From Nitratidesulfovibrio sp. SRB-5 (GTDB lineage: Bacteria > Desulfobacterota > Desulfovibrionia > Desulfovibrionales > Desulfovibrionaceae): a stretch of DNA of 64,000 bases. A program made the translations under genes and the position numbers. Location: assembly GCF_019931275.1 (NCBI RefSeq), contig NZ_JAIOTY010000001.1:1522650-1586649 (forward strand), in the 5' to 3' direction. This document shows positions 21,729-29,185 of the stretch, piece by piece (position 1 is the stretch's first letter; each line of letters opens with the position of its first letter). Below the pieces are notes generated by a model. It made no database searches, was not told the origin of the DNA, and saw only the letters and a list, made by a program, of their open reading frames with translations.

Positions 21729-22235
21729 TCAGGCGGGGTGTCCGTTGTCGGTCGGGGCGCAGTCGCCGCCCGCGCGGCGTACCTCGGCGACCACGGCATC
21801 GCACAGCAGTGGCAGGCGCTGGCCTGCCACGGGGGAAAGTTCGGTGCCCAGCGACTGGTAGTCGTGCGGCTCCATGCCGATGATCACCGCTTCTGGCCGT
21901 TTGCCCACCAGTTCGCAGAAGATCAGGGTGTCCACGAGGTCGGTCTGGTGCATGGAGTCGTTGAAGCCGAGGCTCTTGCGCAGGTCTTCGCCGGTCAGGC
22001 GGTAGATGGCGCCGGGTTCGTCCCCTGCAAGCACGGCGTCCACCACGATCAGGTGGTCGCACTCCATGATGGCGTCCATGAGCCGCATGCCCAGCGTGCC
22101 GCCATCCATGACGGAGACGTTGTCGCTGAAGGCATGGGCCTTTTGCAGCGCCTCCACGGCGCGCACGCCGATGCCTTCGTCGGTGTACAGGATGTTGCCC
22201 ACGCCAAGGACGAGGATGTTGGGGCGATTGCTCAT
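21729..22235 (-). CDS. hupD: hydrogenase maturation protease (HupD/HyaD family)
   Basis: 168 residues. GVGNILYTDEGIGVRAVE contains the first nickel-contact acid; VVDAV and GMEPHDYQSLG supply the other conserved acid and histidine. This endopeptidase removes the C-terminal tail of the nickel-loaded large subunit. Lying directly downstream of hynA (352-bp gap), it is likely specific for HynA, while the paralogue at 25887 serves HysA. The start at 22235 (MSNRPNILV) lacks a good ribosome-binding site, unlike its neighbours; the gene name is by family, not by proven orthology. Confidence 0.92.
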   Translation of the reverse strand: MSNRPNILVLGVGNILYTDEGIGVRAVEALQKAHAFSDNVSVMDGGTLGMRLMDAIMECDHLIVVDAVLAGDEPGAIYRLTGEDLRKSLGFNDSMHQTDLVDTLIFCELVGKRPEAVIIGMEPHDYQSLGTELSPVAGQRLPLLCDAVVAEVRRAGGDCAPTDNGHPA

Positions 22236-22587
22236 GTGGGGTGTACTATAGGGTTGGAAAAGGCCCGGCGCAAGGCCGGAACCTCGATATGACGGCGATG
22301 TGCCGTTTTGCGAGGTTGCGCAGGCGGCCTGCGTGGGGCGCTGATCCGGTTGGTGAAAAACGAAAACGGTGCGCGTCCGGTTTGCAACCGGCGCGGGCAC
22401 GCCGCGTCGACGCGCAGTTTTCGGGGCCGTCGTCCGGTAGACGGTGCACGGCGGGGCTGCCGCTGTGCCAGCTTCGCAGATAGTCCGAGGGCCCGGCACA
22501 AGGCCGGGCCCTTCGGTCGATATGGCATTCCGAACCCTGCCTGCACCACCTGCCTTGGCGGGCGGGGCAGGCAGGGCTGCGGACAGC
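22236..22587. other. 352-bp gap between hynA and its protease gene
   Basis: No convincing gene. It carries two related stem-loops, one at 22489-22511 (stem GGGCCCGGC) and a weaker one near 22263-22280 (GCCCGGCGCAAGGCCGG), that share the core GCCCGGC-x-CAAGGCCGG. Their position after hynA suggests mRNA stabilisation or partial termination. Confidence 0.55.
22489..22511 (-). terminator. stem-loop after hynA
   Basis: Perfect 9-bp G+C stem with a 5-base loop (ACAAG), 77 bp past the hynA stop. No U-tract, so it may attenuate or protect the hynBA message instead of ending it completely. Confidence 0.45.
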
Positions 22588-24291
22588 TTACAGGATGCGG
22601 AACTTGTGCACTTCGTTGGTGTGCCCGTCGATGACGTGCACGCCGCAGGCGATGCACGGGTCGAACGAGTGCACCGTGCGCAGGATTTCCACCGGGCGCT
22701 TGGCATCGGCCACCGGGGTGCCGATGAGCGAGGCTTCCACCGGCGACAGCTTGTTCTTGTCGCAGCGGGGGCCAAGGGTCCAGGTGGAGGGCACGACCAG
22801 CTGGAAGTTGCCGATCTTGCCGTCCTCGATGCGGATCCAGTGCGACAGGCCGCCGCGCGGGGCGTTGACGAAGCCCACGCCTTCCGCCTGCTTGGGCATT
22901 TCCCACGGTGCGCAGATGACGTTGTCGCCCTTGGCGATGTTGTCCTTGTACTCCTGTAGCATCACGCCCACGTATTCGGCGATGACGGCGGTTTCGATGC
23001 CGCGCGCCGCCGTGCGGCCCAAGGTGGAGAACAGGGCCTCGGGGCCCACGCCCAGCTTGGCGAGCACGGCGTCGGTCACGGCCTTCACCTTGGGGTGGCC
23101 CTGCGAGTAGGCGATCAGCACCTGGGCCAGCGGCCCGGTTTCCATGGGTTCGCCCATGTAGCGGGGGGCCTTCATCCACGAGTAGCGGTCGTCGCCGTGC
23201 AGGTCGGTGTACTTGGGCTGGGTCTGGCCCTTCCACGGGTGGCGGGCTTCCGCGCCTTCGTACCAGCTGTGGCGCACGTGTTCTTCAATCTGCATCTTGT
23301 CGAACGGCTTGATGTTCTTGAAGTCGCGCTTGAAGACCACGCCCGGCTTGAAGAACCGGCTGTTCAGGTCGTACTCGTCCTTCGGGAATTCGCCGAAGGT
23401 GATGAAGTTGTCGGTACCGCCGTACTGCGACCAATCCTTGTAGGCCGCGGCAACCACCAGCAGGTCGGGGATGTACACTTCATCCACGAACGCCTTGGTT
23501 TCCTTCCACAGCGCCTCGAATTCGGCGATGCGCTGCGGGGTCAGGGCGTCGTAGCAGGTCACGCCGCCCACCACGGTGAACTGGGTGTGCGGGTTCTTGG
23601 CGCCGAAAACGGCCATGGCGCGCGCGGCCTTCACCTGAAGGCGCAGGGCTTCCAGGTAGTGGGCGGTGGCGATGAGGTTGGTTTCCGGATCCAGGTAGTA
23701 GGCGGGGTGGCCGCCCAGGAAGTAGGCATTGGTGAACGGGCCGAGCTGGCCGCTTTCCACGAAGGTCTTCAGCTTGTCCTGCACCGCCTTCAGGTCCGCC
23801 GCCGTGGTCTTGCGGGGCGAGATGGACGAGGCCACCTTGGCGGCCTTGGCCGGGTCGGCCTTCAGCGCGGCGGTCACGTCCACGAAGTCCAGGGCGTGCA
23901 GGTGGTAGAAGTGCACGATGTGGTCGTGCAGGTACTGCGCGCCCAGCACCAGGTTGCGGATGTAGGTGGCGTTCTTGGGAATGTGCACGCCCACGGCGTT
24001 GTCCACGCAGCGGGTGGAGGCCAGCGCATGGGTATAGGTGCACACGCCGCAGGTGCGCTGGGTGAAGTGCTGGGCGTCGCGGGGGTCGCGGCCCTTCAGG
24101 ATGATTTCAAGGCCCCGGAACAGCGTGGAACTGCTGTAGGCGTTCTTGACCTTGCCGTTCTCCACTTCCACCTCGATGCGCAGGTGGCCTTCGATGCGGG
24201 TAACGGGGTCGACGACGATGGGACCGCTATAGGAGCTCTTGGGCGTCACGGGGATGCCGCCCGGAGCATTCTGGGCTCTGCAGCCGCTCAT
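22588..24291 (-). CDS. hynA: periplasmic [NiFe] hydrogenase, large subunit
   Basis: 567 residues. Nickel-iron ligands are Cys81 and Cys84 (RTCGVCTYTHALAS) and Cys546 and Cys549 (DPCIACGVH). The 15 residues after His552 (VIDGHTNEVHKFRIL) form the tail removed on maturation. The body matches my memory of the D. vulgaris Miyazaki F enzyme closely, including residue numbering. The subunit holds the H2-splitting site and is exported with HynB by the Tat route. The N-terminus MSGCRAQNAPGGIPVTPK has no signal peptide but a Cys at position 4, as in HysA; in the crystallised Miyazaki enzyme the ordered chain begins just after this segment. AAGGAG precedes the start; hynB is 58 bases upstream. Confidence 0.98.
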   Translation of the reverse strand: MSGCRAQNAPGGIPVTPKSSYSGPIVVDPVTRIEGHLRIEVEVENGKVKNAYSSSTLFRGLEIILKGRDPRDAQHFTQRTCGVCTYTHALASTRCVDNAVGVHIPKNATYIRNLVLGAQYLHDHIVHFYHLHALDFVDVTAALKADPAKAAKVASSISPRKTTAADLKAVQDKLKTFVESGQLGPFTNAYFLGGHPAYYLDPETNLIATAHYLEALRLQVKAARAMAVFGAKNPHTQFTVVGGVTCYDALTPQRIAEFEALWKETKAFVDEVYIPDLLVVAAAYKDWSQYGGTDNFITFGEFPKDEYDLNSRFFKPGVVFKRDFKNIKPFDKMQIEEHVRHSWYEGAEARHPWKGQTQPKYTDLHGDDRYSWMKAPRYMGEPMETGPLAQVLIAYSQGHPKVKAVTDAVLAKLGVGPEALFSTLGRTAARGIETAVIAEYVGVMLQEYKDNIAKGDNVICAPWEMPKQAEGVGFVNAPRGGLSHWIRIEDGKIGNFQLVVPSTWTLGPRCDKNKLSPVEASLIGTPVADAKRPVEILRTVHSFDPCIACGVHVIDGHTNEVHKFRIL

Positions 24292-24349
24292 GGTATTCTC
24301 CTTGGCTGTTGCCTATGGGGGTATTGGGTGACCTAGCGCGTGCGCGTGA

Positions 24350-25303
24350 TCAGTTCTGGTAGAACGGGGTCATGGCGTCCCAGAAATCGGGTTCGCTGCA
24401 CCCGATGCAGGGGTGCCCCGCGTCCACGGGCCAGTTGGTCTGGTTGAACTTGATCTTCGGGCAGTTGTTCATGGTCACCGGGCCCTTGCAGCCCAGCTCG
24501 TAGAGGCACCAGCCCTTGCGGGCTTCTTCCGATTCGAACGACGGGGCGAATTCGCCCGCGTCGAAATGCGGCAGGCGGGGGCACTGTTCGTGTACGGTCT
24601 GGCCGAAGAACATGGTGGGCCGGTTCAGGCTGTCCAGTTCGGGCGCGGCCTTGTTCTTCAGGTAGTACACGATGGTGCCGACCAGGTTGTACGGGTTCGG
24701 CGGGCAACCGGCGATGTTGATGGCCTTGACGCCAAGGTGCTTCAGCGCGTCGTTGACGCCCTTGGCACCGGTGGGGTTGGGCTTGGCCGCCTGCACGCCG
24801 CCGAAGGTGGCGCAGGTGCCGTACGCGATGACGGCCTGGGCCTTGGGCAGGATGCGGCTGCAGATGTCCAGCATGGTGTGGTTGGCCACCTTGCCGTAGA
24901 TGCCGTTGGCAGCCGTGGGAATGCCGCCTTCCACCACGGCGATGAAGCCGTGCGGGCTGTTGACGGCCTGTTCCAGGGCGGCTTCCGCCGCATCGCCCGC
25001 GGCGGCCATGATGGTCTCATGGTAGTCGAGGGACAGCGTGTCCAGAATCAGAGTGTCGATGTAGGGTTCGAAAGCGCGCAGCACCGATTCGGAACAGCCG
25101 GTGCATTCGGCGTTGTGCAGGTAGACCACGGACGGGCGCCGGGGACCCATGAGCGCGCGGGCAACTTCCGGCGCGAACGCGGGGCCCATGCCCATGGTCA
25201 CGGCGATGGCCGTACAGAACTTGAGGAAGTCGCGTCGAGACACGCCGCGTTCCGCAAGCCTTTCCTCCACGCCCTCCTTGCCGAGACCGATCGAGATTTT
25301 CAT
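24350..25303 (-). CDS. hynB: periplasmic [NiFe] hydrogenase, small subunit
   Basis: 317 residues. A Tat signal with the twin-arginine motif VSRRDFLKF (22-30) and hydrophobic stretch ends at about Ala50; the mature protein of 267 residues starts [10 protein letters not shown]. Cluster ligands include Cys67 and Cys70 (ECTGC, mature 17 and 20), [14 protein letters not shown], and the C-terminal cysteines in [23 protein letters not shown] and [10 protein letters not shown], consistent with two 4Fe-4S clusters and one 3Fe-4S cluster that pass electrons to cytochrome c3. The strong leader AAGGAGGCAGGG before ATG at 25303 is identical to that of hysB. Confidence 0.98.
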
Positions 25304-25509
25304 CCCTGCCTCCTTCGGCACGGCGTATCACCGTGCCTGCCCGCCGCCAGCAGCGCGGCGGGGTAAGGGTCGTACTGGTGCGAAAGGCCCCCCGGATGCG
25401 ACCGCTTCTGCGTGCATCCGTTTCCCGCGGTGACCTGTCCGCACGTTTGCCGGGAAGGTACAACACATTGAAACGTTATTCCAATTGAAAATGTAAATGA
25501 GGCACACAT

Positions 25510-25886: not shown

Positions 25887-26366
25887 TCAGCCTGCCTGTT
25901 CCATTTCCGTGATGATGGTGCGGATTTCTTCGCGCGCCACATCCACAAAACGGGGGAAGGCGGCCTGCACCGGCTCGGAAAGGCCGATGTTCCAGTTCAG
26001 GAAGTCGTGCGGCTCCATGCCGATGATCTGCATGCGCGGGCGCGGGCCGCGCAGTTCCGCCATCTTCAGCGAGTCGATGAGATCCACGTCGTGGATGGAC
26101 AGCCGCTGTTTCTCGTTCTGGACAAGATCGTCCTCCGACAGGCGGTAGATGGTGCCGGGGGCGCCCTTGGCGTGGACGATGTCCAGCACCAGCAGGCGGT
26201 CGTACCCTTCGAACAGGTAGAAGATGTCCTGGGTGAAGGTGCCGCCGTCCATCAGGGTAACGTTGGACGGCCAGGTTTCCTTCATCAGTTCTTCCACGGC
26301 AAAGACGCCGACGCCGTCGTCGGTGAGCAGGGTATTGCCGATGCCGAGTACGAGCAGCTTCTGCAT
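25887..26366 (-). CDS. hysD: hydrogenase maturation protease for HysA
   Basis: 159 residues, HupD/HyaD family. GIGNTLLTDDGVGVFAVEEL and VLDIVHAKG carry conserved acids and GMEPHDFLNWNIGLS the conserved histidine. It is expected to clip the 15-residue tail from HysA after Ni insertion. Located 303 bp downstream of hysA with a hairpin between. GGAG precedes the start at 26366 (MQKLLVLG). It is clearly diverged from the protease at 21729, consistent with one protease per hydrogenase. Confidence 0.93.
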   Translation of the reverse strand: MQKLLVLGIGNTLLTDDGVGVFAVEELMKETWPSNVTLMDGGTFTQDIFYLFEGYDRLLVLDIVHAKGAPGTIYRLSEDDLVQNEKQRLSIHDVDLIDSLKMAELRGPRPRMQIIGMEPHDFLNWNIGLSEPVQAAFPRFVDVAREEIRTIITEMEQAG

Positions 26367-26669
26367 GTGGGCTCCATGATGTTCCGGTACGCGGGCGGAA
26401 AGGGTGTGCGCCCGGATGCCGTCCTTTCGCGCCAGACAGGCCAGACGGGCCTGTCGGGCCTGTCGGGGGCAATCGGGGCGGCGCGATGGCGCATGTTGTC
26501 GATGGGGCGCGGCGGCGACGCAGGCCGCATGCCCTTGCCAGGCCCACCCTATGGCGGGCGTGCGCGCCGCGCAAGCTCCCCGGTGGGGGATCGCACGGGG
26601 CGCGAATGCAAGAGGGGACCAGGCCGGTCCTGCCGGTCTGGCCCCCTCCATAGGTTCGGTATGCGGCGT
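26367..26669. other. 303-bp gap between hysA and hysD
   Basis: No gene. It contains a hairpin just after the hysA stop (26613-26647, arms GGGGACCAGGCCGG and CCGGTCTGGCCCCC, imperfect) and short repeats of GGCCTGTCGG type at 26432-26465. The arrangement mirrors the hynA-hupD gap. Confidence 0.55.
26613..26647 (-). terminator. hairpin after hysA
   Basis: Imperfect stem of about 14 bp beginning 23 bp past the true hysA stop; on the minus strand followed by CTCTTGC. Likely attenuator or mRNA stabiliser between hysA and hysD. Confidence 0.45.
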
Positions 26670-28202
26670 CTACTTCACTTCGACGACGGAGACCTTGCCG
26701 GATTCAGCGTGCAGCACGTGCACGGCGCAGCCCAGTCACGGGTCGAAGGCGCGGATCACCCGCGCCACGTTCACCGGGTTGCTGATGTCCGGCACGGGGG
26801 TGCCGACCAGCGCGCGTTCCACCGGGCCAAGCTGGCCGCTGTCGTCGCGCGGGTTGCAGTTCCAGAGCGTGGCGGACACGATCTGGTAGTTGTCGATCTT
26901 CTGGTCCTTGATGTTGATGTAGTGGACCAGCGAGCCGCGCGGCGCTTCGGTGAAGCCCACGCCTTCGGAGCTGGCGGGAATTTCGGCGGCGGCGAAGGTT
27001 TCTTCGCCGGCCTTCACTTCCTTCAGCCAGCGTTCGATGGCGGAGAGCATGTAGTACGTTTCCTCGGCGCGGGCCACGTGGCGGCCCATGACCGAGAAGG
27101 CGGCTTCGTCGCCAAGGTCGCGGAAGCGCTTGGCGTTCAGCTTGAACAGGTCCTTCAGCAGCTTCTGGCCCACGGGCGACAGCTCGGGGTTGGTGATCCA
27201 CATGCGGGCCACCGGGCCGGATTCAACGGCCTTGCCGTTGTAGCGGGGGGCCTTGACGAAGCTGTACGCACCGACCTTGTTGGGCGCGGGCACCGTCTTG
27301 CCTTGCGAGAAGTGCAGGCCGGTGGTGGCGTCGTCGAACCAGGAGTACTTGACGTATTCCTTGATCAGCTTGGGATCGAACGGCTGGTCCTTGCCGTCGA
27401 TGTACACGCCGCGCTTCAGGTGCAGCTCGGTCATGGCATCGTTGAGCGGGAAGGCGCCGAACGAGATGCAGTTCTTGTAGCCCTGGCCGAACTTGAACAG
27501 GTCCTTGTAGGCCGCGCCCACGGTGTAGGCCACGGGCACGTACTTCTTTTCGACGAATTCGCGCACCTTCTTGAAGCGGGCGGCGTATTCGACAAGGGCT
27601 TCCTTGGTGGGGATTTCGGTGGTGCCGCCCACGACCTGGCCCTGAACGTGGGGCATGCGCCCGCCGAACATGGCGACCATTTCGTGGCAGATGCGGCGCA
27701 CTTCAAGCGCTTCCAGGTACTGGTCCACCGCGGCGGCGTTGATGTCCTTGGGCAGGCGCAGGTCGGGCTTGGCGAAGCGCGGCACGAAGGGCGCGCTGTC
27801 CGGCCCCTGCACGAAGTCCAGGGCGGCCAGGTGGTAGAAGTGCAGGATGTGCGACTGCAGGTAGTTGGCGCCGAAGGTCAGGTTGCGGGTAAGGCGGCCG
27901 TTGGTGGGCACCTTGACCTTGAAGGCGTTGTCCAGCGCCATGCACGAGGCGGTGGAGTGGGCCGTGGGGCACACGCCGCAGATGCGCTGCACGATCTGCG
28001 AGGCGTCGCGCGGGTCGCGCCCGCGCAGGATGGTTTCAAAGCCGCGGTACATGCCGCCGGACAGGCGGGCGTCGACCACCACGCCGTTTTCAACGGTGAC
28101 TTCGGCTTTCAGGTGGCCTTCGATTCTGCTTACCGGGTCGATGGCGATGGTCGCCTTGCCGGTGGCCCCGGCAGGAGCGGCCTTGGGTGTACAGCCGGAC
28201 AT
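26670..28202 (-). CDS. hysA: [NiFeSe] hydrogenase, large subunit (selenoprotein)
   Basis: 510 residues including selenocysteine encoded by the in-frame TGA at 26736-26738 (codon 489). After the TGA the frame continues LGCAVH plus a 15-residue tail (VLHAESGKVSVVEVK) and ends at TAG 26670-26672. Active-site ligands are Cys75 and Cys78 (RICGVCPTAH) and Sec489 and Cys492 (DPULGCAVH), the numbering I recall for D. vulgaris Hildenborough HysA. It catalyses H2 oxidation or evolution in the periplasm with HysB. The N-terminus MSGCTPKAAPAG has no signal peptide; the Hildenborough protein is reported to be lipid-modified. AAGGAGG precedes the start; hysB is 29 bases upstream. Stopping at the TGA would give a false truncation. 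Confidence 0.98.
26700..26738 (-). promoter_or_regulatory. selenocysteine UGA and putative SECIS stem-loop
   Basis: Bacterial SECIS elements lie directly after the UGA. Here the mRNA downstream can fold with apical stem GUGCA/UGCAC (26719-26723 with 26709-26713) and loop CGUGC containing GU, extended by weaker pairs below. The fold is by eye; the UGA itself is certain from the continued conservation of the protein. Confidence 0.6.
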
Positions 28203-28231: not shown

Positions 28232-29185
28232 CTAGGCCGAGTAGAAGGGAGACTTGCCGTCGGGGAAGTCGGGTTCGACGCAGCCGATGCACACCGCGTT
28301 GGAGATGCACCAGTTAACGCCGCCGTTCCACTTGCGCTCGAAGCTGTCGCACATGGACATGGGGCCCTTGCAGCCGAGGTCGTAGCGGCAGCCTTCCTTC
28401 TTGGTGAAGGTTTCGCACATCTTCCCGGCGTCGTACGCTTCAAGGTAGGGACAGTTTTCATGCACGTTGCGGCCATAGAAGGGGGTGGGGCGGCCGTCGG
28501 CGTCGAGCAGCTTGACCACGTCGGCCAGGCCAGCGGCCAGGCCCTTGGCCTTGATGGCGTTCAGCGCCACCACCACGGTGCCCACGATCCAGTCGGGGTG
28601 GGGCGGGCAGCCGGGAATGTTCACCACCGGGGTGGCGATGCCGTTGTCCTTGAAGAACTGCGACACCGACTTGGCGCCGGTTTCGCTGCCCTGGGCGGCG
28701 GGAATGCCGCCATAGGCCGCGCAGGTTCCCACGGCCAGCACGGCGGCGGCATTGGCGGCAACGCTCTTCATGGCGTCAACCATGGAGATTTCCTTGTGGT
28801 GCGCTTCGCCGATGATGCAGTACTTGCCGTCGGCCTCGGTGGGCACCGCCCCTTCGACCACCACGAAGTACTTGCCCTTGTACTGTTCCGCGATCTTCAT
28901 CATGTGTTCCATGGCGGGTTCGCCTTCCCACGCCATGACGGTGGGGTGGAACTCCAGACTGATGACCTTCAGCAGCACATCGGCGATGGTGGGGTGCACC
29001 GAGTTCAGCAGCGACACCGAACAACCGGTGCAGCCCTGGCCCTGCAGCCAGAGCACCGGGGGCCGTTCGCCGTTCAGCGAACCGGAAATGGCTTCACAGA
29101 CGGCGGGGTGGAACATCTGGGATATCCCGAACCCTGCAACCGTACCTGTGCACAATTTGACGAAATCACGCCTGTTGAGACTCAT
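28232..29185 (-). CDS. hysB: [NiFeSe] hydrogenase, small subunit
   Basis: 317 residues. Tat signal with NRRDFVKL (4-11) and a short hydrophobic stretch. Iron-sulfur ligands: QGCTGCSVSLL (proximal cluster), GTCAAYGG, GCPPHPDW, ENCPYL, GCRYDLGCKGP, DSFERK region, and CIGCVEPDFP. NiFeSe enzymes carry three 4Fe-4S clusters. It relays electrons to tetrahaem cytochrome c3. The start at 29185 uses the leader AAGGAGGCAGGG, identical to hynB. Upstream lies a promoter region with a run of ten C (29270-29279). Confidence 0.97.
   Translation of the reverse strand: MSLNRRDFVKLCTGTVAGFGISQMFHPAVCEAISGSLNGERPPVLWLQGQGCTGCSVSLLNSVHPTIADVLLKVISLEFHPTVMAWEGEPAMEHMMKIAEQYKGKYFVVVEGAVPTEADGKYCIIGEAHHKEISMVDAMKSVAANAAAVLAVGTCAAYGGIPAAQGSETGAKSVSQFFKDNGIATPVVNIPGCPPHPDWIVGTVVVALNAIKAKGLAAGLADVVKLLDADGRPTPFYGRNVHENCPYLEAYDAGKMCETFTKKEGCRYDLGCKGPMSMCDSFERKWNGGVNWCISNAVCIGCVEPDFPDGKSPFYSA

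Follow-up and report, generated by a model that had tools for sequence, protein, structure and literature searches.

The hysA reading frame across an in-frame TGA

The locus raises the question of whether the TGA at which a mechanical ORF caller ends hysA (26736), in a 64,000-nucleotide stretch of DNA from Nitratidesulfovibrio sp. SRB-5 that is referred to as a whole as the window, is a stop or a codon for selenocysteine (Sec). The frame is opened by ATG at 28202 on the minus strand and runs for 488 codons to the TGA (26738–26736), after which it continues for 66 bases to the stop codon TAG at 26672–26670 (Table 1). With the TGA read as U, the product has 510 residues and the C-terminus DPULGCAVHVLHAESGKVSVVEVK. 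Read-through therefore gains 22 residues, with LGCAVH and a 15-residue tail lying beyond the TGA. The sequence-only reading had described the TGA, the 66-bp extension, LGCAVH with its tail and the TAG in the same way, and these positions proved exact on the sequence.

Several lines of homology connect this C-terminus to NiFeSe hydrogenases. With C substituted for U, the protein scored 919.8 bits against the NCBIfam HysA model NF045518 (cut-off 780), and it aligned to its last residue with the NiFeSe chains 5jsu (917 bits) and 5jsh, the deposited sequences of which contain the C-terminal tail. The solved chains 2wpn, 3ze6, and 1cc1 stop at the equivalent of His495. We take 5jsu, 5jsh, 2wpn, and 3ze6 to be HysA of Desulfovibrio vulgaris Hildenborough, and 1cc1 and 4kl8 to be the NiFeSe hydrogenase of Desulfomicrobium baculatum. 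The alignment with HysA proposed in the sequence-only reading thus agrees with its claim that known NiFeSe large subunits share this C-terminus. The in-frame TGA of DPULGC occupies the C-terminal Ni-ligand position and is followed by xxC. The feature is almost certainly the hysA gene of a standard NiFeSe hydrogenase from a sulfate reducer of the Nitratidesulfovibrio type, in which the TGA would be decoded as Sec489 and the tail later removed after His495.

Table 1. Features of the hysA locus (positions in the window).
Feature	Position	Strand	Basis or remark
hysA, NiFeSe hydrogenase large subunit	26670..28202	minus	510 codons with the proposed Sec at 489, ends TAG
In-frame TGA, proposed Sec codon 489	26736..26738	minus	Ni ligand position by homology
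C-terminal tail, codons 496–510, removal expected after His495	26673..26717	minus	Ends of 2wpn, 3ze6, 1cc1
Apical hairpin of the proposed bacterial SECIS	26708..26724	minus	6 bp stem, loop CGUGC
hysB, NiFeSe hydrogenase small subunit, upstream ORF	28232..29185	minus	NF045520, 588.4 bits (cut-off 470)
NiFeSe maturation protease (HysD type), downstream ORF	25887..26366	minus	NF045519, 263.1 bits (cut-off 190)

The small subunit and the maturation protease both lie in the hysA cluster and both score above their model cut-offs. The presumed start of the HysD-type protease is the M before QKLLVLG, and its gene ends in TGA. The gap that separates the end of hysA from the protease gene contains a very stable inverted repeat (26611–26649, minus strand; −31.9 kcal/mol, z −3.48), which is perhaps a terminator or an RNA-processing element. 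A complete cluster for a Cys-type NiFe hydrogenase, with small subunit, large subunit, and its own protease, is found at 21729–25321 on the minus strand, directly downstream of the NiFeSe cluster.

Conservation of the TGA among relatives

The best 80 of 88 relatives were kept, and the closest among them (98–99% identity) were Nitratidesulfovibrio oxamicus, N. liaohensis, and two metagenome bins labelled Desulfovibrio sp., in line with a position of the organism in or close to Nitratidesulfovibrio. A total of 111 sequences were examined, i.e., 110 relative loci and the window, and 107 of them reach codon 489; L056, L057, and L061, which had no match to the C-terminal query, were left out together with L018, which ends before this codon. 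TGA is the codon in every one of the 72 HysA-type rows extending that far; this number takes in the window as well as its duplicate, L094, and counts some genomes twice. The TGA is followed by LGCAVH in 71 of these rows and by LGCSVH in one. The more distant rows all have a Cys codon at this position (35/35; TGC in 23 and TGT in 12). Of 199 sampled genomes of the same order, 61 contain HysA (E up to 1e-120), and in all 61 the HysA frame is broken by TGA only (once in 60, twice in one); the position of the TGA was read in the 30 of these genomes for which loci were fetched. One HysA (L102, genome G142) has a second in-frame TGA at the position of Trp in SATLWNCNPRDD of the HysA from the window, which may reflect a sequencing error, a mutation, or a genuine second recoding.

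In a tree from which residue 489 and everything after it were excluded, a branch (99/97) separates the 66 Sec rows from the Cys rows. Identical rows were dropped for this tree, 8 of the 35 Cys rows were chosen for it, and the midpoint root serves for drawing only; the long branches of L058, L038, L023, and L021 were flagged.

Selenocysteine decoding genes

The genome to which the window belongs (4.12 Mb, 11 contigs) was searched for selA, selB, selC, and selD, as the sequence-only reading had suggested, and all four were found. The scores were 615.7 bits for selA (cut-off 267.9), 358.6 bits for selB (cut-off 242.25), 352.5 bits for selD (cut-off 125), and 83.6 bits for the tRNA-Sec gene selC (gathering score 47), with ARAGORN in agreement and giving the anticodon tca. 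Lack of selB or selC had been named as an observation that would overturn the Sec assignment, and both genes are present. A second RNA match above the gathering score (49 bits) was rejected as tRNA-Sec, since ARAGORN calls it tRNA-Ser. The selD gene (L124) itself has an early in-frame TGA at 2404–2406 on the minus strand, in the context KAAG-TGA-AAKVAPGD, and selenophosphate synthetase is therefore probably also a selenoprotein.

Among the HysA-positive relatives, selB was above the cut-off in 58 of 60 genomes, although some matches span part of the profile only. It was also above the cut-off in all 20 HysA-negative genomes tested (20 listed out of the 138 without a HysA match), so its co-occurrence with hysA, considered as a test of dependence, fails to discriminate, and selB presence is needed but not specific. 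The two HysA-positive relatives without a selB match above the cut-off, G064 and G079, are both fragmented assemblies. In G079 (77% complete, 390 contigs), selB-like pieces covering 1–148 and 142–580 are located on different contigs, and tRNA-Sec was not found above the gathering score. In G064 (96% complete, 510 contigs), tRNA-Sec scored 86.3 bits, and selB is represented by weak matches and two 25-residue pieces only.

A hairpin downstream of the TGA

The published model of the bacterial SECIS requires an apical loop of 3–9 nt with a G among the first two loop nucleotides, an upper stem of 4–16 bp, a distance of 16–37 nt from UGA to the loop, and a minimum free energy at or below −7.5 kcal/mol (PMC13188914). 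The hairpin in hysA, with arms at 26724–26719 and 26713–26708 around the loop at 26718–26714, agrees with this geometry, as it has a 5-nt loop with G second, a stem of 5–6 bp, and a spacing of 17 nt. The folding energies were −18.4 (49 nt), −12.7 (41 nt), and −7.7 kcal/mol (22 nt), all below the published limit, while the bare 17-nt hairpin, at −6.7 kcal/mol, falls short of it. Three of the four stretches that were folded contain the hairpin in their minimum-energy structure, and the 62-nt stretch (26680–26741) folds otherwise. However, the region was no more stable than dinucleotide shuffles in any of the four stretches (z −0.68, +0.22, +0.32, and −0.25), and an Rfam scan of the whole 64,000 nucleotides at the gathering threshold returned RNase P and one tRNA only, with nothing at hysA. 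The earlier suggestion that a downstream stem-loop fits a bacterial SECIS draws its support from the comparison of relatives; the fold it had proposed as a check does yield a SECIS-like hairpin, but taken alone this does not outperform shuffled sequences. Because folding alone did not separate the region from shuffles, comparative and synonymous-recoding tests were used.

For these tests identical stretches were counted once, which left 45 Sec and 34 Cys sequences of 45 nt (48 and 34 at 48 nt), and one Cys row that was too short was left out. All 45 distinct Sec sequences can form the five apical pairs, where 10.6 would be expected under synonymous recoding, and none of the 34 distinct Cys sequences can, where 0.5 would be expected. 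The mean folding z against recodings was −2.18 for Sec and −0.46 for Cys. When minimum-energy folds were compared, the apical pairs were present in 44 of the 45 Sec sequences and 0 of the 34 Cys sequences at 45 nt, and in 47 of the 48 Sec sequences at 48 nt, with L048 as the exception in both cases. In the alignment of the 45 distinct Sec rows, 99.7% of the stem cells pair, and the covariation score is 0.160, compared with at most 0.029 in slid registers. The observed numbers of cells paired and of cells changed on both sides, and the covariation score, were each reached by none of 500 shuffles, although the cells are not independent events because the sequences are related. On the other hand, the number of pairs altered in both partners was as high in 500 of 500 shuffles, and that of further pair types in 188 of 500.

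Two-sided changes occur in only one of the seven stem pairs, namely pair 18-28, which is GC in 28 sequences, CG in 16, and UA in one, and is never unpaired. Among the other six pairs, five are invariant; the sixth varies in one partner and is unpaired in a single cell. Parsimony on the tree gives three changes of pair type at 18-28 within the Sec branch. At least two of the three are forced by the starred branches (one to GTC-Asp and one to GTT-Asn), and the third rests on L038, which has a long branch. The support for a SECIS thus comes from the comparison, i.e., from pairs kept in Sec but not in Cys sequences and from compensatory changes, and not from the fold of a single sequence.

Proposed decoding and alternative readings

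By analogy with relatives and from general knowledge of selenoprotein synthesis, SelA, SelD, and tRNA-Sec would make Sec-tRNA, and SelB would bind the hairpin that closely follows the TGA, delivering Sec at codon 489. Translation would then continue through LGCAVH and the 15-residue tail to TAG. The claim that the TGA encodes Sec is supported by the alignment, by the presence of selA, selB, selC, and selD, by the conserved TGA, and by the comparative hairpin data, and in this cell it is very probably correct.

If the TGA were a true stop, the gene would be truncated or a pseudogene and the frame downstream of it a relic. The end assigned by the ORF caller agrees with such a reading, and the 488-residue form still matches the Pfam family NiFeSe_Hases (418.5 bits). 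Against it, every HysA-type row that extends to this codon has TGA followed by LGCAVH (or once LGCSVH), the hairpin pairs are retained in TGA sequences and not in Cys sequences, and the genome has the full set of sel genes, so we consider a true stop extremely improbable. Decoding as another residue, either Trp through a change of the code or Cys through misreading, is to our judgement just as improbable. In its favor, 5jsu is deposited with Cys at the Sec position, so Cys at position 489 appears to be tolerated. Yet TGA serves as the stop codon of hysD, hynB, and hynC elsewhere in the window, so the case of hysA is one of context-dependent recoding with the code unchanged, and both the tRNA-Sec with anticodon tca and the SECIS-type hairpin after the TGA point to Sec. 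A true stop, a changed code, and Cys misreading were accordingly rejected in favor of Sec489. Reading the codon as Sec corrects the annotation, since an ORF caller that takes the TGA as a stop drops the selenocysteine ligand of Ni together with Cys492 and the tail involved in maturation.

The C-terminal tail and residue 498

Maturation should remove the 15-residue tail. Since the counterpart of His495 is the last residue in several solved chains, the mature enzyme would keep only U489 to H495 of the 22 added residues. Removal of the tail after His495 would be carried out by the dedicated protease encoded just downstream of hysA, and Sec489 and Cys492 would remain at the Ni site once the tail is gone.

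The co-varying stem pair joins the silent third base of Val494 to the first base of codon 498, so that GTG occurs with CAC (His), GTC with GAC (Asp), and GTT with AAC (Asn), without exception among the 45 distinct Sec sequences. Residue 498 belongs to the tail, which is absent from mature relatives. We tentatively hypothesize, with slightly less than even confidence, that RNA constraints and not protein constraints shape the beginning of the cleaved tail, residue 498 following the SECIS stem. It would mean that a removable tail lets the 3′ arm of the SECIS evolve with the mature enzyme untouched.

Comparison with known systems

In PMC4730141, annotated NiFeSe large subunits are described as cut short at an in-frame opal codon, with read-through giving homologous C-termini, and SECIS elements were detected directly after the opal codon; according to a figure legend there, the analysis included sequences of D. 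vulgaris Hildenborough and Miyazaki F. NiFeSe hydrogenases are also noted there for their oxygen tolerance. PMC10362691 reports that the SECIS of Desulfomicrobium baculatum differs from that of E. coli. Sec read-through of hysA is thus a known kind of event, described before in closely related sulfate-reducing bacteria (PMC4730141), and the present observation is correct, already known, and ordinary. The hysA gene described here is a further close relative in a well-studied hydrogenase class and establishes no new principle.

Compared with HysA of D. vulgaris Hildenborough, the family, the Sec position, the numbering (2wpn 1–495 on 1–495), LGCAVH, and the presence of a 15-residue tail are the same. 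The differences are ordinary divergence over the protein body and two residues in the tail, which reads VAVIEVK in D. vulgaris Hildenborough and VSVVEVK here. The enzyme of Desulfomicrobium baculatum (1cc1, 4kl8) belongs to the same family and its solved chains end at the His495 equivalent, but it is more distant (758.1 bits for 1cc1 vs 917 for 5jsu). The Cys-type NiFe large subunits, e.g., HynA (22588–24291), share the Pfam family and have a DPC..C motif at the homologous place, whereas they carry Cys in place of Sec, and none of the 34 distinct Cys homologues tested forms all five apical pairs.
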